From IMG/VR virus record IMGVR_UViG_3300044712_001710, positions 1 to 21,772 of that record: a DNA stretch of 21,772 nucleotides. The stretch is one strand, 5' to 3'. This document shows, piece by piece, positions 1,817-21,772 of this stretch. Every line of letters starts with the position of its first letter. Position 1 is the stretch's first letter. A program made the position numbers and the translations under genes. The stretch is from a virus. The notes under the pieces are model-generated. The model searched no databases. It had not been told where the DNA came from and worked only from the letters and a program-made list of their open reading frames with translations.

Positions 1817-2202
1817 AAGAAGAAAAGCCTATGAGTAATTCATGGATTTTGGGCGTTCTTATCGCGACGGCCGTTCTTTCCGGGGCGATAGGATCGCTAA
1901 CGGAGCGGTTCAGGGCGCCTGAGTTCAAGCCAACGGGATGGATAGACCCCCAAGAGCGGCTTCCCGCGGATAGGGAGCGGGTGACGGCTCTCTACGCGGT
2001 CGACGGAGCGACCATTTCGGAGACGGTTACGTACTGCATCACCGATGTATCCGGGGCGGCGCCAGAAGCCGCCTGGGTACGCTATAGCAGGGATGGAACG
2101 GCCCAGCCCGACCTTGGGGAACCCCTCAAATGGGAGCCGTTCCCGATATTGCCAGACCTATACCTCAAGGCGCGATCAAAAGCGCAGCGTGTCGGACGCT
2201 GA
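1813..2202 (+). CDS. Membrane-anchored DUF551-like protein
   Basis: A 129-residue protein from TTG 1813 (or 123 residues from ATG 1831). Residues ~10-28 are hydrophobic (WILGVLIATAVLSGAIGSL) and should form one N-terminal membrane segment or signal anchor. The rest matches the layout of DUF551, a small domain common in phages: it opens with WIDPQERLPADRERV, has a middle strand pair, and closes with WVRYSRDG and a W-x-P-x-P segment (KWEPFPILP). DUF551 proteins are usually soluble, so the membrane anchor is unusual. Function is unknown. Confidence 0.65.
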   Translation: MKEEKPMSNSWILGVLIATAVLSGAIGSLTERFRAPEFKPTGWIDPQERLPADRERVTALYAVDGATISETVTYCITDVSGAAPEAAWVRYSRDGTAQPDLGEPLKWEPFPILPDLYLKARSKAQRVGR

Positions 2203-2208
2203 TGGCCG

Positions 2209-2523
2209 ATGATCGCCTTCACGGTAGAGGTCGCGCAACGGTTCAGGCTCACGTTCAGCGATCCAGAGGCAAGTGAAGAGGCCGCCCGGGTCATTGCGGA
2301 GCAGAATATTACGCGAATTATCCCGATGGGTGGCAATGGCCGGACGCTGGGAGAGTGGAAGGCCATGCCGCTCGATTTTCTGGTTTCCGTGGTTCCCATG
2401 GTTCTTGAGGCTCCCGAGGTAGTGAGCGCGCCTAGGCGCAAGGAAGAAGGCGCCAGGCCGGAGCAGGCGCGCCAGGCGCCTAAGAGGGAAAAGAGAGGAC
2501 AGGGAGAGCTGGAGATTTTTTAG
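2209..2523 (+). CDS. Small protein with C-terminal clamp-binding-like motif
   Basis: A 104-residue protein from ATG 2209. Residues 1-70 look folded (alternating strands and helices, ending LDFLVSVVPMVL). Residues ~72-97 are a charged, Pro/Arg/Lys/Glu-rich linker that is probably disordered. The last seven residues are QGELEIF, which fits the bacterial sliding-clamp (beta) binding consensus Q-x-x-L-x-(L/I)-F. This layout, a domain plus a flexible tail plus a clamp motif, suggests recruitment to the replication clamp. The domain itself is not recognised. The clamp idea is an inference from a short motif. Confidence 0.6.
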   Translation: MIAFTVEVAQRFRLTFSDPEASEEAARVIAEQNITRIIPMGGNGRTLGEWKAMPLDFLVSVVPMVLEAPEVVSAPRRKEEGARPEQARQAPKREKRGQGELEIF

Positions 2524-2535
2524 AAAGGAGAATGC

Positions 2536-2745
2536 ATGAAGAAGAGCTACGATTTTGCGTTCGACATCGACGACAAGGTGGTCTGCCCGGTGACGGGAGA
2601 GACCGGAGTCGTGACGATGTGCGCCGTGGATGACGGAAGGAAGCCCCAGTACTTCGTCAAGAGCAAGGATGGGGAAAAATGGTGGCCCGAGCGGCACCTC
2701 GACGCGGTGGCTATGGAGGGCGAGCCGGCGGCGGACCAGGCCTAG
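2536..2745 (+). CDS. Small SH3/KOW-like phage protein
   Basis: A 69-residue protein from ATG 2536 with a strong ribosome site, AAAGGAG, at 2524-2530. The sequence DIDDKVVCPVTGETGVV, then VDDGRKPQYFVKSKDG, then WWPERHLDAV follows the strand pattern of small SH3- or KOW-like barrels often seen in phage early regions ('D.V....G..G.V......Y.V....G....W.E..L'). The role is unknown. It is the last protein gene before the hairpin-rich, gene-free stretch. Confidence 0.7.
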   Translation: MKKSYDFAFDIDDKVVCPVTGETGVVTMCAVDDGRKPQYFVKSKDGEKWWPERHLDAVAMEGEPAADQA

Positions 2746-2770
2746 CGTCACGCCGGGGAAACCCGGCATC

Positions 2771-2872
2771 GGAGGCGCGACCTCCCGCCGTTCTCGCATA
2801 CGACGGCGGGCAGGCGCTAGGAAGGGGTACGCGGCGCGTACCTCGGCCAGGGTTCGAATCCCTGGGCCTCCA
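2771..2872 (+). other. tRNA-like element (T-arm and acceptor, no D-arm)
   Basis: CAGGG-TTCGAAT-CCCTG (2848-2864) is a textbook T-arm. It is followed by GGCCTCC and A, like the 3' acceptor strand and discriminator base of a tRNA. GGAGGC at 2771-2776 pairs perfectly with GCCTCC at 2866-2871. Between them lie an 8-bp hairpin (2784-2810, in the anticodon-arm position) and a 9-bp hairpin (2824-2844) like the long variable arm of class II tRNAs such as Ser. There is no D-arm, the presumed anticodon loop is too long (11 nt), and CCA is not encoded. It may be a tRNA mimic, a decayed tRNA, or the tRNA 3' end copied into an attP site. Confidence 0.4.
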
Positions 2873-3096
2873 AGTGGTGTCCACAACCAAAGTTGCCGAA
2901 AGGCGTGAAGCGTGGCGGCGAGGAGCCTGGCCGATAACCCGGGCGGTGGTCCGTTGTCGGTGACATACCTCATGGAACCGAACGCAAGCCGAAGCGCGAC
3001 AGGTGCAGGGGTGGTCGAACCTGCTAAAAAACCAGCGCCCTTGACACTGGCGACTAAAAACTTACCACGCGTTGCCGCGGCGAGACGGGGCTGGCC

Positions 3097-3119
3097 GCCG
3101 GGAAAGACCGGCTTTTTTT
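3097..3119 (+). terminator. Rho-independent terminator
   Basis: Stem GCCGG (3097-3101) / CCGGC (3108-3112), loop GAAAGA, directly followed by seven T (3113-3119). It would end the early operon or the candidate RNA just before the next gene. Confidence 0.75.
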
Positions 3120-3186
3120 GGAGGACGTCCTGGGAGGTGATTGGGAGGATTTTCATAGAGACGACTATCCGGCCTTAAAGGTTCAG

Positions 3187-3342
3187 ATGGCCGCGGATGT
3201 GAAAACACTCCGACCTGATTGCGGATCCTTGGAAATGCTTCGCGACGATCTGAAGGAGCAACTAAAGGCTAGGTCAATCCAAGGGATTCGCTCATATGCG
3301 GCGATTCTCAAGGATTTGGCTGATGGATGCAGGAAGGCATGA
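3187..3342 (+). CDS. Hypothetical phage protein (51 aa, start uncertain)
   Basis: ATG 3187 is preceded by AAAGG at a usable distance. The frame is also open back to a TTG at 3118 (74 residues), but that start lies in the T-run of the terminator and has no ribosome site. The product is acidic/basic and helical (SLEMLRDDLKEQLKARSIQG followed by IRSYAAILKDLADGCRKA). I recognise no family. It is the first gene after the terminator, so an unseen promoter should lie in or near 3120-3186. Confidence 0.5.
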   Translation: MAADVKTLRPDCGSLEMLRDDLKEQLKARSIQGIRSYAAILKDLADGCRKA

Positions 3343-3356
3343 AGGGGAGGGGAATC

Positions 3357-3482
3357 ATGAGGAAATGGTACTTCATCCGGGGCGCGGTGTATCGCCTTGG
3401 AACGCGCTTTAAAGAGGCAGGGGAGAGCCTTCGCCTCATCGGATTCATCAGGCTCGGGTTATGGCTTAGGGGACGCGCCTAA
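3357..3482 (+). CDS. Very small basic phage protein (41 aa)
   Basis: ATG 3357 to TAA 3480-3482, with a very strong purine ribosome site (GAAGGGGAGGGGAA, 3341-3354) just upstream. The product begins MRKWYFIRGAVYRLGTRFKE and ends in a basic hydrophobic stretch (LIGFIRLGLWLRGRA). Such small Arg/aromatic-rich proteins occur in phage early operons, but I cannot name a function. The strong ribosome site and the fit between neighbours support a real gene. Confidence 0.6.
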   Translation: MRKWYFIRGAVYRLGTRFKEAGESLRLIGFIRLGLWLRGRA

Positions 3483-3521
3483 AGGCTTTCCCTGTCGAAT
3501 GGCTGGAGGATCGGGGAGAGT

Positions 3522-4547
3522 ATGAAGAACAACATCGGCCACTTTACCCACGAAGTGAATGCCCTTGATCATCGCAAATTCCTCATCCTGCGCGCTTTCT
3601 ATGGCGGTGAAAAAGGATGGGCTATGGAGGCCCGTTTCTGGGGCTTAAACTGCCTGATTGGTGATGCTGAGGGATGCCGGCTTGATACGGCCAAGAAAGG
3701 CGAAAAAGCCCGGATTGGTAGGGCTCTTGAGCTCTCTCTGAAGGAGGTAGACGAGTTCCTAACCGTCCTCGAGGTAGAGGCCGAGCTCCTTCATAATGAG
3801 GGCGGAATCATATGGACCGACCAAACCCAAGAGGACCTTGGGCGGGCCATGTCGGTTAGGATTGAGTCCAAAAATAGAAGAAATGGAAGAAACGGACGGC
3901 AACCGGATGTAAAAGAAGAAAAGACGGCCGTTGAAACGGAAACGACGGCCGACAAAACCCACGGAGCGGAGCGGAGAGGAGAGGAGAGGAGTAATACAAG
4001 AGCGAGCGAGCATACTACATCGGCAGAGCCGTCGCCTGTGGAAAACTCTCAAGAATCCGGGGCGATAGAATCGCCCGCCCGCCCGCCGCTCTTAAGAGAC
4101 CAGATCCAGGAAAAGATAAATGCGGCCCCATGGCCTATAACCTTTTCAGCTTCAGAAGCTGCTTTTTTAGCCGTCCGGCTGGTTGCTTTCTGCGCCGATG
4201 CCGGATTTGTTGACTACGCCATAGACCGCGTTTCTAGGCAAAATCCAAGCAATCCACCAGGCCTCTTGATCGCGGGCCTTACGAGATATGACGAGTGGAT
4301 CCACGAATACATCAAGGGCAAGGAGCGTGAAAAAGATCGAGACGCGCGAGCCCCTCCCGTGATTCCACCACCCCCACCCTGTTCTTGTGGTGGTGAAAGC
4401 GGTGTCCGCTTTTCTCTCAGGATCGATGAGGGCAAGTGCAAGGATTGTGGGGCTTGGTTTGAGTGGAATTATGAGCATGGCTCATGGGTTGAAGATCGTG
4501 CGTTGTGCGGTGATCGAATAGCTGATCGTGTTGACGTTGGAGGCTGA
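3522..4547 (+). CDS. DUF4373 (Lin1244/Lin1753-like) replication/regulatory protein
   Basis: A 341-residue protein from ATG 3522, behind GGGGAGAG. Residues 1-95 fit the DUF4373 N-terminal domain: HFTHEVNALDHRKFLILRAF, then YGGEKGWAMEARFWGL, then an acidic helix. This domain is found in phage DnaD-like replication-initiation proteins. Residues ~115-185 are a charged, low-complexity linker. Its DNA holds a GGAGA-type purine microrepeat (about 3962-3991). Residues ~186-270 form a helical domain. After a proline run comes a zinc ribbon (CSCGG ... CKDCGAWFEW). It probably binds DNA or loads helicase, by family analogy. No helicase loader gene is visible here. Confidence 0.65.
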   Translation: MKNNIGHFTHEVNALDHRKFLILRAFYGGEKGWAMEARFWGLNCLIGDAEGCRLDTAKKGEKARIGRALELSLKEVDEFLTVLEVEAELLHNEGGIIWTDQTQEDLGRAMSVRIESKNRRNGRNGRQPDVKEEKTAVETETTADKTHGAERRGEERSNTRASEHTTSAEPSPVENSQESGAIESPARPPLLRDQIQEKINAAPWPITFSASEAAFLAVRLVAFCADAGFVDYAIDRVSRQNPSNPPGLLIAGLTRYDEWIHEYIKGKEREKDRDARAPPVIPPPPPCSCGGESGVRFSLRIDEGKCKDCGAWFEWNYEHGSWVEDRALCGDRIADRVDVGG

Positions 4548-4900: not shown

Positions 4901-5247
4901 AGTTTTGCGCTAGCCCTGGATGTCAGGTGATGATACCTCAAGGTCAAACACGTTGCCCGAAACATGCAGGCGTAGGCGGTGCATTTGATGGGGCTATTAG
5001 AACTAATGGGCATCTGTACAATACGCGCCGATGGAGGAATCTACGGGCTGACGTTATAAGACAGCATCCGTACTGTGTTCGATGTCAAAGAACGACCGGC
5101 CTAACCGTCGATCATATTCAGCCCCCTAGAGGTGATGAAGTTCTATTCTGGGATCCGGACAACCTTGAAGTTATTTGCCATGAGGATCAGGCAAGAAAGA
5201 CAGCCGCGGAAGTGAGGGCAAGGAAGAATGAATACAAGACGAATTAA
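4891..5247 (+). CDS. HNH endonuclease-like protein with Gln in place of the last His
   Basis: Start ATG 4891 is preferred over the in-frame ATG 4852, which lies in the previous gene; AGGGAAGGA is 7 nt upstream. The 118-residue product has an N-terminal knuckle (FCASPGC ... RCPKH), then YCVRC (Cys62, Cys65), VDHIQP (Asp74, His75), DNLEVICHEDQ (Asn91, Cys96) and RKTAAE. HNH proteins next to terminases help cut DNA during packaging. The usual ending is 'CxxCH.RKT'. Here the second Cys is Asp99 and the catalytic or metal-binding His is Gln100, so activity is uncertain. Confidence 0.8.
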   Translation: MRLKFCASPGCQVMIPQGQTRCPKHAGVGGAFDGAIRTNGHLYNTRRWRNLRADVIRQHPYCVRCQRTTGLTVDHIQPPRGDEVLFWDPDNLEVICHEDQARKTAAEVRARKNEYKTN

Positions 5248-5467
5248 GAAGGCTCGAAAAGAAATTAGTAAACAGGAAATTGCGATGCTTGAAGAGGCGC
5301 GAAAGAAAAGGCGCGTTCCTCTCCTTGTCCAAATGGCCTCCGTGAACGGATGGCATGGACCATATATGCGATGGGCTGCGCGTTGGGAAATCAGAGCAAT
5401 TAGGAACATTTCGTCAGCACGGAAGAGGGCGGCGCATAATGTCGCGCACACCCATAGGGGTCTTTAA
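5228..5467 (+). CDS. Small basic hypothetical protein (79 aa)
   Basis: ATG 5228 lies 20 nt inside the end of the HNH gene, behind GGCAAGGAAG. The product is highly basic (RRIKKARKEISKQ, then EEARKKRRVP) with an aromatic middle (GWHGPYMRWAARWEIRAIRN). No domain is recognised. A competing frame starting at 5355 lacks a ribosome site. The gene bridges the GC-rich upstream DNA and the AT-rich terminase block. Confidence 0.5.
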   Translation: MNTRRIKKARKEISKQEIAMLEEARKKRRVPLLVQMASVNGWHGPYMRWAARWEIRAIRNISSARKRAAHNVAHTHRGL

Positions 5468-5483
5468 AAAAATGCATTTTTCT

Positions 5484-5530
5484 CTTTACTGTAAAGCACA
5501 ACCGCTCTCATCCGCACATTTTGGCAAAAT
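5484..5530. promoter_or_regulatory. Two small palindromes upstream of terS
   Basis: In the 92-bp AT-rich gap before the terminase genes, CTTTAC-T-GTAAAG (5484-5496) and ATTTT-GGC-AAAAT (5518-5530) are perfect inverted repeats with centres 34 nt apart. They could be operator or activator sites for late genes. I see no convincing -35/-10 pair. Confidence 0.3.
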
Positions 5531-5559
5531 CCAAGGTTTTCATTTTGGGGTCTTAGGGC

Positions 5560-6054
5560 ATGCCAGGCGGTAAGGTAGGGAGGCCAAGAAAATCAACAAA
5601 ACAAAAAGTAATTGAAGGTACGTTTCGCCATGATCGCGATGGTGGAAGGGCGGATATTGACTTTCCAATTATTGAAAATACATCGGCTATAAAGGCGCCC
5701 GCGTCAATAAAAAATAAAGAAGTCCGCAATCATTTTGAAATGCTTGTAAAAAATCTTTTAAAAGTACAAAGCCTAACCTGGCAAGACATGGCTTCCCTTG
5801 AGCAAGCCCACCTCCAGCTTGAGAAATGCTACATCCTACAAAAGATGATCACCTCGATGGAGACTAACGGAATAGGAGATCAGATTTCTGATTATACAGG
5901 ATTATTAGCGGCTCAAAAAAGAGCGCTCGAGGCATATACCTCAATCGTTTATCGGTTTGGAGTGTCGCCTCTTGAGCGTTCGCGTATAACAAAAAAGGCA
6001 GTTATAGAAAATGGAAAATCAAAATTAGCTGAAATACTACTGGCTGCAAAATGA
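5560..6054 (+). CDS. terS: Terminase small subunit, P27 family
   Basis: A 164-residue protein from ATG 5560. It opens GGKVGRPRKSTKQKVIEGTF and continues RHDRDGG, the N-terminal signature of P27-type small terminases ('GRP.kP...k.l.GT.r..R'). A helical middle and a C-terminal motif (FGVSPLERSRITKKA) follow. This subunit recognises the packaging site and presents DNA to the large subunit. It overlaps terL by 4 nt (ATGA), which fits coupled translation. Its codons are clearly AT-richer than those of the head genes. Confidence 0.9.
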   Translation: MPGGKVGRPRKSTKQKVIEGTFRHDRDGGRADIDFPIIENTSAIKAPASIKNKEVRNHFEMLVKNLLKVQSLTWQDMASLEQAHLQLEKCYILQKMITSMETNGIGDQISDYTGLLAAQKRALEAYTSIVYRFGVSPLERSRITKKAVIENGKSKLAEILLAAK

Positions 6055-7703
6055 AATTAAAAGATGAAATAGAATTATATTGTCGGGATGTAAAAGAAAA
6101 TAATCTCCATCATTGTGAGAAAGAAAAACAAGCGGTATTAAGATTTGAGGCCGACTTAAAAAGAAAGAATTTCAATTTTGTGATGGAATGGGAAAAGGCT
6201 GCTGCGCTTATTGCCTTTGCTGAAAGTCTTAAGCAGGCAAAGGATGAGGGATATGGGAAACACCTACTTCTAAGCCCGTGGCAAAAGTTTATTTATGTTA
6301 ATTTATGGGGATGGAGATATAAAAAGGATAGGCTTAAAAGAAGATTTACAAAAGCCTATATTCAAATTGCGCGGAAAAATGGAAAGACAACCTTTCTTTG
6401 TCCGATTATGGGGATAGATATTCTCACTACTCCCGGTGCAGAAATATATATTGCGGCTAATCAGAAATCACAATCGAACATTGCCTTTGATTTATTCAAA
6501 TCGATGATTAGTCAATCAGATGAATTGTATGGATTGTTAAACATTACACGCGATGCAATAACAATGGGTGAAAATAGGATAAGGCCGTTATCAAAAAATA
6601 TTGATATTGATGGATTTAACGCTTCAATAATTATCATCGATGAATATCATCAAGCACGTAATACGGAAATGATAGAAGGGCTCCAGCGTGGACAGGCATC
6701 AAGGAAAAACCCACTCCTATTAATTATTACGACCGCAGGAACAAATCTTAATGGACCTTGTTATCAGGAATACAAACATGCAGCAAAGATATTGGCAGGT
6801 ATAGAAAAAGCAGAAAACTATTTCCCTATTATATTTGAACAAGATAAAGGCGATGATTGGACTGATATAAAAATCTTTAGAAAATCAAATCCAAATATTG
6901 GTGTGTCTGTTCAATTGGATTACCTGGAAAAAAGCCTCCTAGAGGCCAAGCAAATGCCGAGTCAGGTCTCGGGGTTCAGGACAAAGAACCTAGATGAATG
7001 GGTCCAAAATACCATTGATACATGGATTCCAGATAAAGCATGGACAGCCCAAATAAAAAAGAAAATTGACCTAATGGGCCGGGAATGTTTTGGAGGAATT
7101 GACTTATCAAAGATAAACGACCTTACCGCTTTTACTCTCTATTTTCTGATTGAAGGATTCTATTATGCAAAGCATAGATTTTATATTCCTGAAGAAAGAA
7201 TAGCTGAAAAAGCCAAGACGGATAACCTCATGATTCCCACTTGGGTACGAGATGGATGGATCACCGCTACGCCAGGTGGAACGATTGATTACTCATTTCT
7301 TGAACGCGATGTCCTCGAGGACTCGAAGAATTATAAAATAAACCTGATAGGATACGATCGATATTATTCAAGCCAAATTGAGAAGACGCTTTCAACAATG
7401 CCCGTTCTAGAGTTCGATCAAAGTCTGAAACATTTTGCCGCCCCCACAAAGGCCTGGGAGAAGGATGTTCTTGATGGAAAAATTATTGACGACAATCCGG
7501 TAATGCGGTGGTGCCTATCATGCGCCACCGTGAGGCCCGATGTCAATGACAACTACAAGCCCATGAAGCGTAAGGGATCCGGATCTGATGAACGAATTGA
7601 CGGCGTGATTACGTCGATTATTGCGCATTCACTGGCCTCGCGCATCACTATATCTAGTGAGGGTATCTCGACCGATAAGCTTTTCGGACTCTTGGGGGTG
7701 TGA
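6051..7703 (+). CDS. terL: Terminase large subunit (ATPase-nuclease)
   Basis: A 550-residue packaging motor, of normal length. The Walker A motif is ARKNGKTT (residues 107-114), Walker B is SIIIIDE (192-198), and the coupling motif LIITTAGTN follows. The C-terminal RNase H-like nuclease has its acidic residues in GGIDLSKINDL (Asp351), IGYDR (Asp436) and SDERIDG (Asp513/Asp517). The protein translocates DNA into the prohead and cuts it. Most of the gene is AT-rich with AAA/ATT-type codons. GC-rich codon choice returns near its 3' end (after about 7470), a possible mosaic junction. Its TGA is followed immediately by the portal gene. Confidence 0.95.
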   Translation: MKLKDEIELYCRDVKENNLHHCEKEKQAVLRFEADLKRKNFNFVMEWEKAAALIAFAESLKQAKDEGYGKHLLLSPWQKFIYVNLWGWRYKKDRLKRRFTKAYIQIARKNGKTTFLCPIMGIDILTTPGAEIYIAANQKSQSNIAFDLFKSMISQSDELYGLLNITRDAITMGENRIRPLSKNIDIDGFNASIIIIDEYHQARNTEMIEGLQRGQASRKNPLLLIITTAGTNLNGPCYQEYKHAAKILAGIEKAENYFPIIFEQDKGDDWTDIKIFRKSNPNIGVSVQLDYLEKSLLEAKQMPSQVSGFRTKNLDEWVQNTIDTWIPDKAWTAQIKKKIDLMGRECFGGIDLSKINDLTAFTLYFLIEGFYYAKHRFYIPEERIAEKAKTDNLMIPTWVRDGWITATPGGTIDYSFLERDVLEDSKNYKINLIGYDRYYSSQIEKTLSTMPVLEFDQSLKHFAAPTKAWEKDVLDGKIIDDNPVMRWCLSCATVRPDVNDNYKPMKRKGSGSDERIDGVITSIIAHSLASRITISSEGISTDKLFGLLGV

Positions 7704-7704
7704 T

Positions 7705-8919
7705 TTGGGTCTGTTCGATTGGGGGAAAAAGGGAAAAAAACGCGCCTACGGCGCGGAATATACTTGGATCCCCTTCGCGGATGGAGTATCCGGCGCATTC
7801 CAGGGCGTAAATGCAACCGCGTTTATATGCGAAAAGTTGATTGCCGACGCAATCAGCGAGATTCCGTTAAACCTCTACGTGAAGAAAAAGGACGGTTCCA
7901 GGGCGAAGGCGGGATACCATCCGCTCTATTCGATCGCGAAATATGCCCCGAACAGTGACGAGCCCCCCGTCCTTTTCTATTCCTCCATGGTCCGCGACTA
8001 CTTCCGGGGGAACGTCTATATCAATAAGGTAATGCGGGGCAAAGATGTTTCAAGCCTTTTCCTCCTCGATAGAAACCTGATGAACGTGAAGCGGATTCTA
8101 GGCCGGAAGGTATATACCTACCAGGGCGCAGAAATTCCTTCCGATCAGGTCCTGCATATCCCGTCCAAATGGTCCTACGATGGGATTAAGGGCGGATCGA
8201 TCTTCGATGTATTGATATCCGTTCTTAAGGCGGGCAGCTCTCTCGATGAGTATACGCATAAAAGCTTTGGCGGCGTGGTCGGGAAGCGGCTCGTTCTTGA
8301 GCTCCAGAAGCTCGATAAGACTTTAACCGATACGGAAATTCAGGCCAAGCAAGATATTTTCGCCGCCAAATACGGCGGCGCCAAAAACGCCGATAAGGCG
8401 CTCATGCAGTTCCCTGATACCAAGTACTCAGTACTCGATACGGGAACGATAGACGACCGTATCCGATGGCTGAAAGAGAACGCGGCTTATCAGGATGAGC
8501 GCATCGCCAAGGTGTTTGGCGTACCCATCCCATTGATCAATGGGACATACCAAAACAACCTTGAAGCCATTTTTACGGTCTTCATCGAAACAGGCCTACG
8601 CCCCATCTGCACCCATTTCGAACAGTCTTTCAATATGCTCCTTTCTCCCGCCGATCGCCTCTATCATTATTTCGAATACGATTACAATTCGCTCATGAAG
8701 GCCGATCTCGCCGCGCGGATCGACGCCTATACCAAGCAGATAACCAACGCCATCGCCTCACCTAACGAAGTAAGAGAAAAGGAAAATCTTCCAGGGATTG
8801 GCCCCGCGGGAGATACGTACTTTATCCCCGCAAATCTCATGCCGCTCACCATGGAAAACATCACGGCCTATATGGCCAAAAACAAGGAGGCCCAGGCCGG
8901 CCTGGGGAATCAGCCATGA
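7705..8919 (+). CDS. Portal protein, HK97 type
   Basis: The start is set at TTG 7705 (404 residues), giving MGLFDWGKKGKKRA, the usual portal opening. GGGGGTG lies at 7694-7700, and the terL stop is 1 nt upstream. The in-frame ATG at 7621 would place 28 unrelated residues inside terL. Portal landmarks are VNATAFICEKLIADAISEIP, PLNLYVKK, YPL-type 'HPLYSIAKYAPN', and IPSDQVLHIPSKWSYDGIKG. It forms the dodecameric ring through which DNA enters and leaves the head. It overlaps the protease by 4 nt. Confidence 0.93.
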   Translation: MGLFDWGKKGKKRAYGAEYTWIPFADGVSGAFQGVNATAFICEKLIADAISEIPLNLYVKKKDGSRAKAGYHPLYSIAKYAPNSDEPPVLFYSSMVRDYFRGNVYINKVMRGKDVSSLFLLDRNLMNVKRILGRKVYTYQGAEIPSDQVLHIPSKWSYDGIKGGSIFDVLISVLKAGSSLDEYTHKSFGGVVGKRLVLELQKLDKTLTDTEIQAKQDIFAAKYGGAKNADKALMQFPDTKYSVLDTGTIDDRIRWLKENAAYQDERIAKVFGVPIPLINGTYQNNLEAIFTVFIETGLRPICTHFEQSFNMLLSPADRLYHYFEYDYNSLMKADLAARIDAYTKQITNAIASPNEVREKENLPGIGPAGDTYFIPANLMPLTMENITAYMAKNKEAQAGLGNQP

Positions 8920-20932: not shown

Positions 20933-21532
20933 ATGTGGAAACCCGTAAAAAATGGCTTTGGGCTGCGGTGGGTGGCCTCTGTGCTCTTCTTCTGGCTTTC
21001 CTTGGGGGTTTTCTCCTTGGATCGCGCGGAGGAGCCTCCAGCATCGCTGACGCTCGACGAGATATGCTCCAGGCTCGAGCTGATCAACGCACAGCTGAGG
21101 ACCGAGCTCTTGGCCTTGAAAGAGGCCTATATGAGCTCGGCGGACGAAGCCGTCTCATTGAAGACCTTGCTCGAAGAAACGAAGATGGAGCTCGACGGGC
21201 TGAGGCTCGAGCTGAAGAAGCGTACCGACGAAGCGGAGAGGCTGTTGAGCGAATCGGCCGGCTTGCGGACGTCCTTGGACAAGGCGCAAGGGGATTCGGT
21301 AGAGCTGAGGCTCTCCTTGACGAAAGCGACGAGCTCCTTAGAGCAGGCAGAAAAATCCTTGAAGGCGATAGAGAAGGAAATCCAGCGCCTTAAGCTATGG
21401 GGGTGGGTAGCATCCATCGCCGCGGCGGCCGGCTGGATCCTCTACATTCTCCTTATTCTGGGGGTTGATCTAGGGAGAGGGCTCCTTTTTACCGGTTTAT
21501 CAGGATGGGGAACCCAACCGATACAGGGGTAA
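20933..21532 (+). CDS. Spanin-like coiled-coil protein with N- and C-terminal hydrophobic segments
   Basis: ATG 20933 (199 residues) is preferred over the in-frame ATG 20852, which lies inside the amidase gene. Residues ~9-26 are hydrophobic (GLRWVASVLFFWLSLGVFSL), residues ~40-155 are a long heptad-rich coiled coil (LKTLLEETKMELDGLRLELK), and ~160-180 form a C-terminal membrane helix (VASIAAAAGWILYILLILGV). GC-rich third positions match neighbouring phage genes. The layout recalls a one-component spanin, but no lipobox Cys follows the N-terminal segment. A second frame is fully nested in it. Confidence 0.65.
   Translation: MWKPVKNGFGLRWVASVLFFWLSLGVFSLDRAEEPPASLTLDEICSRLELINAQLRTELLALKEAYMSSADEAVSLKTLLEETKMELDGLRLELKKRTDEAERLLSESAGLRTSLDKAQGDSVELRLSLTKATSSLEQAEKSLKAIEKEIQRLKLWGWVASIAAAAGWILYILLILGVDLGRGLLFTGLSGWGTQPIQG
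20935..21393 (+). CDS. Nested i-spanin-like (Rz-type) protein in an overlapping frame
   Basis: GTG 20935 begins 2 nt after the ATG of the other frame (ATGTG) and stays open for 152 residues. The product has basic residues, one membrane helix (WLWAAVGGLCALLLAFLGGF, residues ~7-26), then a long charged helix (RRDMLQARADQRTAEDRALG; AERIGRLADVLGQ-type region about residues 98-115). That is the layout of an Rz/i-spanin. Its codons are rich in CGA, GCT and GAA, as expected if the overlapping frame shapes base composition. It could therefore be a by-product. Both frames may be real, as with lambda Rz/Rz1. Confidence 0.5.
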   Translation: METRKKWLWAAVGGLCALLLAFLGGFLLGSRGGASSIADARRDMLQARADQRTAEDRALGLERGLYELGGRSRLIEDLARRNEDGARRAEARAEEAYRRSGEAVERIGRLADVLGQGARGFGRAEALLDESDELLRAGRKILEGDREGNPAP

Positions 21533-21534
21533 AA

Positions 21535-21564
21535 GGCGCGGAATGACGCAAAATGGCGCGGAAT
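21535..21564 (+). repeat. Short direct repeat after the lysis genes
   Basis: GGCGCGGAAT occurs at 21535-21544 and 21555-21564, 20 bp apart (two helical turns). A small inverted repeat, AGCCC-TAG-GGGCT, follows at 21589-21601. It may be a binding site or a chance repeat; no gene is present. Confidence 0.45.
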
Positions 21565-21610
21565 ATACCTTAATAAGGGCAAAAAGTGAGCCCTAGGGGC
21601 TATAACCAGA

Positions 21611-21636
21611 AAAACCTGCCGAAAGGCAGGTTTTTT
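21611..21636. terminator. Rho-independent terminator (bidirectional form)
   Basis: AACCTGCC (21613-21620), GAAA loop, GGCAGGTT (21625-21632), with an A-run before and six T (21631-21636) after. A perfect 8-bp stem. It would end the late transcript that includes the tail and lysis genes. Confidence 0.92.
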
Positions 21637-21667
21637 CATTAGCATGCGCCTAGGGGAATCGAAACGA

Positions 21668-21741
21668 AGGCCCGGCCTGGAGATCGCGATAGCGATCGTA
21701 AGGACTCGGCGCACGAAGCGCCGAGAGGGCCGTAGGCGGCC
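21668..21741. repeat. Cluster of four palindromes after the late terminator
   Basis: AGGCC-C-GGCCT (21668-21678), GATCGC-GATA-GCGATC (21682-21697), CTCGGCGC-ACGAA-GCGCCGAG (21705-21725) and GGCCG-TAGG-CGGCC (21728-21741) lie almost end to end. No gene is visible from 21533 to the end of the window. It may be a packaging (cos/pac) region, a host repeat, or another structured RNA. Confidence 0.7.
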
Positions 21742-21772
21742 TGGAGGGTGCGAACACGGATGTGAGCGCCCG

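Follow-up and report, generated by a model that had tools for sequence, protein, structure and literature searches.

mascRNA and menRNA are tRNA-like modules carried by non-coding transcripts; in MALAT1, mascRNA undergoes processing by RNase P and RNase Z. What bacterial RNase P chiefly recognizes in its substrates is the T-arm/acceptor branch, and this acceptor/T-arm part is also what the CCA-adding and T-loop-modifying enzymes read. In tmRNA, whether one-piece or permuted, a tRNA-like domain resides on an RNA of several hundred nucleotides, and bacterial Y RNAs (YrlA) are non-coding RNAs with a tRNA-mimic module. Among phages, mycobacteriophages carry Y RNAs according to a passage of PMC12282133 that cites Chen 2014, and ROOL and GOLLD represent large non-coding phage RNAs that are often encoded near tRNA islands (PMC12286853).

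The element described here lies in a viral record (IMG/VR IMGVR_UViG_3300044712_001710), whose full stretch of 21,772 nucleotides was analysed and is referred to as the window. Positions 2771-2873 combine an acceptor/T-arm branch shaped as in tRNA with a middle that is not that of a tRNA, and the element is not a translating tRNA. It shares with tRNA-Sec and other long-arm tRNAs a 12-bp acceptor/T branch, a consensus T-loop and an extra hairpin preceding the T-arm, but it differs from tRNAs in having neither a canonical D-arm nor an anticodon loop and in not encoding the CCA end. The likeness to mascRNA and menRNA is that of a tRNA-like module on a non-coding transcript, although mascRNA is mammalian and the acceptor partner chosen by its model (position 2813) is not the best one in the phage domain; a similar likeness links the element to the bacterial Y RNAs. 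In contrast to tmRNA, the phage domain is closed within 103 nt, follows the normal tRNA order and is not accompanied by a credible tag frame. ROOL and GOLLD differ as well, having models of 574 and 416 positions and giving no match.

The gap between the early genes

The element is located in a plus-strand gap of the early operon (2746-3186). According to the list of open reading frames, the upstream gene stops at 2745, and translation probably resumes at an ATG (3187) preceded by AAAGG. A preliminary description of this DNA had considered the gap gene-free, and this view holds, as both borders are confirmed and no tested frame displays the codon usage of the early genes. When scored against the early genes of the window, the gap frames tested on both strands yielded values of -0.04 to -0.25, as opposed to +0.07 to +0.19 for ten of the eleven early genes (the eleventh, an HNH gene, scored -0.11) and +0.16 for the first ORF 3' of the gap. 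Because the tested frames are thus unlike the early genes in codon usage, while the next ORF is alike, the gap is real and looks non-coding. On the same grounds, a 326-aa ORF on the minus strand was rejected along with other protein-coding readings of the gap. A search of positions 2000-4500 for sigma-70-like promoters returned none, and the Rho-independent terminator previously noted at the end of the stretch was found again (Table 1).

Table 1. Sequence and structure features in the gap of the early operon
Feature	Position	Strand	Basis
Hairpin GCCGGG-GAAA-CCCGGC, just upstream of the tRNA-like domain	2752-2767	+	sequence, fold
tRNA-like domain	2771-2873	+	fold z -5.0, strict descriptor, sub-cut-off tRNA-Sec and mascRNA alignments
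Acceptor stem, 5' strand GGAGGC	2771-2776	+	exact pairing with 2867-2872
Long hairpin in the place of D-arm and anticodon arm	2777-2817	+	fold, inverted repeat I2
Hairpin of 9 bp with a GGC triloop where an anticodon or variable arm would be	2824-2844	+	fold
T-arm CCAGGG-TTCGAAT-CCCTGG with consensus T-loop	2848-2866	+	sequence, descriptor
Acceptor stem, 3' strand GCCTCC, followed by an A at the discriminator position	2867-2873	+	sequence
Possible small H-type pseudoknot, GCAGG/CCTGC with TGGT/ACCA	3005-3034	+	read from sequence
Rho-independent terminator GCCGG-GAAAGA-CCGGC followed by a T run	3097-3119	+	terminator search

The structure of the region turned out to be unevenly distributed. The preliminary description had envisaged a structured RNA of about 370 nt with at least eight perfect or near-perfect stems, two of them GAAA hairpins. 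Both of these hairpins are present (at 2752-2767 and around 2895-2904), and over its full 374 nt the region is more stably folded than shuffled versions (z -2.7, with 1 of 100 shuffles equally good). However, the excess is confined to the first 128 bases (2746-2873), which reach a z of -5.3, whereas the tail (2874-3119), with a z of -0.2, shows nothing beyond its composition. Eight meaningful stems through 370 nt are therefore an overstatement, and the proposal of a structured non-coding RNA stands for 2746-2873 but not for a single stable class of 370 nt; a role of the ~250-nt tail as part of a structured RNA is unsupported. The stem of the possible pseudoknot (3005-3009/3020-3024) is listed among the computed stems, but given that the tail has no fold excess, the pseudoknot may have arisen by chance.

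A tRNA-like domain without a decoding part

While the preliminary description had reported no landmark of a known RNA, positions 2771-2873 contain a canonical tRNA T-arm that is stacked on a closed acceptor stem. The T-arm is perfect, and its six base pairs stack with the six of the acceptor stem to give a 12-bp branch of the tRNA type. Neither a canonical anticodon arm and loop nor a canonical D-arm is found, and the position of the CCA end is occupied by AGT. The sequence CTCGCAT in the loop of the long hairpin was considered as an anticodon loop (CGC) but lacks a regular closing stem and was judged a coincidence.

This arrangement occurs beyond chance expectation. A strict descriptor, requiring a consensus T-loop, a perfect 6-bp T-stem and an exact 6-bp acceptor partner ~30-130 nt upstream, matches once in the window but in 0 of 600 shuffled windows and in 0 of 3000 shuffled versions of the first, GC-rich 3.5 kb. 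The 6-mer GGAGGC by itself appears in 7% of the shuffles of the GC-rich upstream stretch. Moreover, when acceptor stem and T-arm are held fixed, the middle of the domain remains more stably folded than its shuffled counterparts (z -3.1).

Standard models detect the domain only below their cut-offs. The Rfam scan recommended in the preliminary description found nothing in the window above cut-off, and ARAGORN at normal thresholds called neither a tRNA nor a tmRNA. With relaxed thresholds, ARAGORN reported a low-quality tRNA-Ala(GGC) spanning 2805-2872, whose 3' half is good but whose loop, GCGGCGC, lacks U33. Neither of the two tRNA covariance models scored the domain above cut-off: the general one (RF00005) produced no match even at an E-value of 10, and that for tRNA-Sec (RF01852) aligned end to end with 2771-2871 at 13.1 bits (cut-off 47). 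Among Rfam families, mascRNA (RF01684) matched the domain best, covering 2813-2870 with 23.3 bits against a cut-off of 42.5 and an E-value of 0.0052. The preliminary description found no tmRNA landmarks and claimed no match to GOLLD or ROOL, and by the models tested in ARAGORN, the Rfam scan and single-family searches the region is indeed none of these. Specifically, the tmRNA model (RF00023) had no match at an E-value of 10, the permuted tmRNA model (RF04321) touched only the T-arm (7.4 bits), and a search for permuted tmRNA, in which ARAGORN was run at relaxed thresholds on pieces treated as circular, gave only low-scoring pseudo calls. GOLLD (RF02032) and ROOL (RF03087) were both absent from the Rfam scan and from single-family searches at an E-value of 10, with a weak control for the ROOL search in that no control genome responded. 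YrlA (RF02553) likewise had no match at an E-value of 10, in a search in which no control genome exceeded the cut-off either, and the Pfam scan of 20 proteins revealed no Ro/TROVE protein.

Relatives and closed T-arms in other phage loci

No homologue of the region was recovered by blastn in phages and plasmids, by nhmmer in all fetched loci or, for the tail pattern, in IMG/VR. The exact T-arm 23-mer GGGTTCGAATCCCTGGGCCTCCA is absent from IMG/VR, where acceptor/T-arm patterns match only tRNAs, tmRNA-like 3' ends or unrelated elements. Relatives were also sought through the TerL and replication proteins in IMG/VR and genomes. The only close relative identified in this way (L002, 70% in TerL) is represented by a contig that begins after the region, and no such element was seen in a more distant one (L003, 32% in TerL). 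A tblastn search with three neighboring genes in phages returned nothing.

To place the element among similar structures, we considered the fetched phage loci, a sample obtained mostly with T-arm patterns and thus biased toward tRNA-rich loci. These loci contain 98 perfect T-arms outside ARAGORN calls. An exact acceptor partner closes 30 of them, compared with 5 and 7 for control 6-mers. With a z of -3.1, the middle of the window's element is the best folded among the 31 closed elements; most of the others have unremarkable middles, and some may be chance occurrences or decayed tRNAs. When fourteen loci with closed elements were scanned with Rfam at the models' own cut-offs, the closed element of L046 was the only one called as a tRNA. 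Together, these results suggest that phage DNA repeatedly contains tRNA-like elements that ARAGORN and Rfam fail to recognize, and such elements may be common and overlooked by standard annotation, as far as this biased sample can indicate.

At the level of individual loci, closed T-arm/acceptor elements without a tRNA call by ARAGORN or by Rfam at cut-off are found in L011, L020, L026, L045, L052, L057 and L086 and likewise in L108, L113, L119, L120, L123 and L128. Thirteen of the 31 closed elements have a called tRNA no more than 1 kb away. One solitary ARAGORN-negative element (L158, 378-476, minus strand), located between two genes of a phage contig, is tRNA-Sec-like and reaches 34.6 of the 47 bits required.

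Proposed role and rival explanations

We favor the reading that the domain is a tRNA-mimic module within a phage transcript, which host RNase P and other enzymes acting on the acceptor/T-arm branch read as a processing signal or a decoy, a reading whose chances we regard as evenly balanced. Host enzymes that recognize this branch would then read the domain. A cut by RNase P before G2771 would leave the upstream operon mRNA with the GAAA hairpin (2752-2767) at its 3' end, where it could serve as a cap. Trimming near 2873 by 3' tRNA maturation would free a tRNA mimic of ~103 nt, and a tail of ~246 nt, ending at the terminator (3119), would also be released. Once free, the mimic could also divert tRNA-binding enzymes as a decoy. 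That the gap is transcribed, that RNase P cuts the transcript and that the mimic serves as a decoy are inferences from the sequence. Points against a tRNA mimic are above all the failure to recover a homologue, and further the missing CCA, the negative promoter search in 2000-4500, the negative RF00005 search, the occurrence of GGAGGC alone in 7% of the upstream shuffles and the unremarkable middles of most other closed T-arms. If real, the module would represent a case in which a phage uses the acceptor/T-arm branch of tRNA without its decoding part, serving either the cutting of an operon by host RNase P or the occupation of tRNA-binding enzymes, possibly including tRNA-targeting defences. 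More tentatively, and with some doubt, phages could carry recurrent tRNA-mimic RNAs, unannotated and overlooked by tRNA finders and Rfam, in which a closed acceptor/T-arm branch surrounds a non-tRNA middle. The element at 2771-2873, which stands alone in an early operon and has its own terminator, would then be one that recruits host tRNA enzymes as processing factors or sequesters them.

Several other origins of the domain have to be weighed against that of a tRNA-mimic module. It could be a decayed or highly divergent phage-borne tRNA gene without present function, as the full-length alignment with tRNA-Sec (13.1 bits) and the good 3' half of the relaxed tRNA-Ala(GGC) call would suggest. Decay should, however, have eroded the pairing, yet pairing is almost perfect in the acceptor stem, the T-arm and the two inner hairpins, the middle folds more stably than when shuffled, and the relaxed call has no U33 in its loop, so that we consider this origin unlikely. 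It also appears improbable that 2746-3119 constitutes one new class of large structured phage RNA, comparable in kind to GOLLD and ROOL, with a tRNA-like 5' module and a pseudoknotted tail: its discrete length, terminator, tRNA-like start and possible pseudoknot at 3005-3034 would fit such a class, but the tail has a fold z of only -0.2, no homologues were found in phages, plasmids or IMG/VR, and neither ROOL nor GOLLD gave a match.

A different possibility is that the T-arm/acceptor stretch serves integration and is no RNA module: it would be an attachment site of the phage, formed by the captured 3' end of a host tRNA gene. The two weak phage matches obtained for the stretch by blastn (E-value about 5) both come from Synechococcus phages, in which it forms the 3' half of a tRNA-Ser whose end is 46 bp away from an integrase-annotated gene. 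Nevertheless, we view an attachment site as distinctly unlikely. Such sites normally adjoin int, but no integrase-like protein was detected in the 21.8-kb record among the proteins scanned (20 with PHROGs and 20 with Pfam). Moreover, an attachment site would need neither the matching 5' acceptor strand nor the structured middle, and the 23-mer does not occur in IMG/VR. Scarcely probable at all is a GC-rich spacer in which hairpins and a terminator are accompanied by an accidental T-arm look-alike. GC-rich DNA folds strongly and other stretches of the record reach z values below -3.5, but the absence of the strict descriptor from all 600 shuffled windows and the additional z of -3.1 contributed by the middle both argue against chance.

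Several further features of the record deserve mention. Its non-coding right end (21532-21772), which has no Rfam match above cut-off, contains a bidirectional terminator-like hairpin (21610-21636) followed by structured sequence, and positions 21601-21720 show the strongest fold of any 120-nt stretch in the window (z -5.6). At the opposite, left end, where the record is cut, a 78-bp unit is repeated head to tail about three times (positions 3-255, 94% matches) and seems to encode a repeated peptide. Finally, the GC content drops sharply over the terminase genes (5000-8000), falling to 36% at 6000-7000, while their flanks are GC-rich (62-66% in the first 3 kb), a pattern that suggests a mosaic genome.
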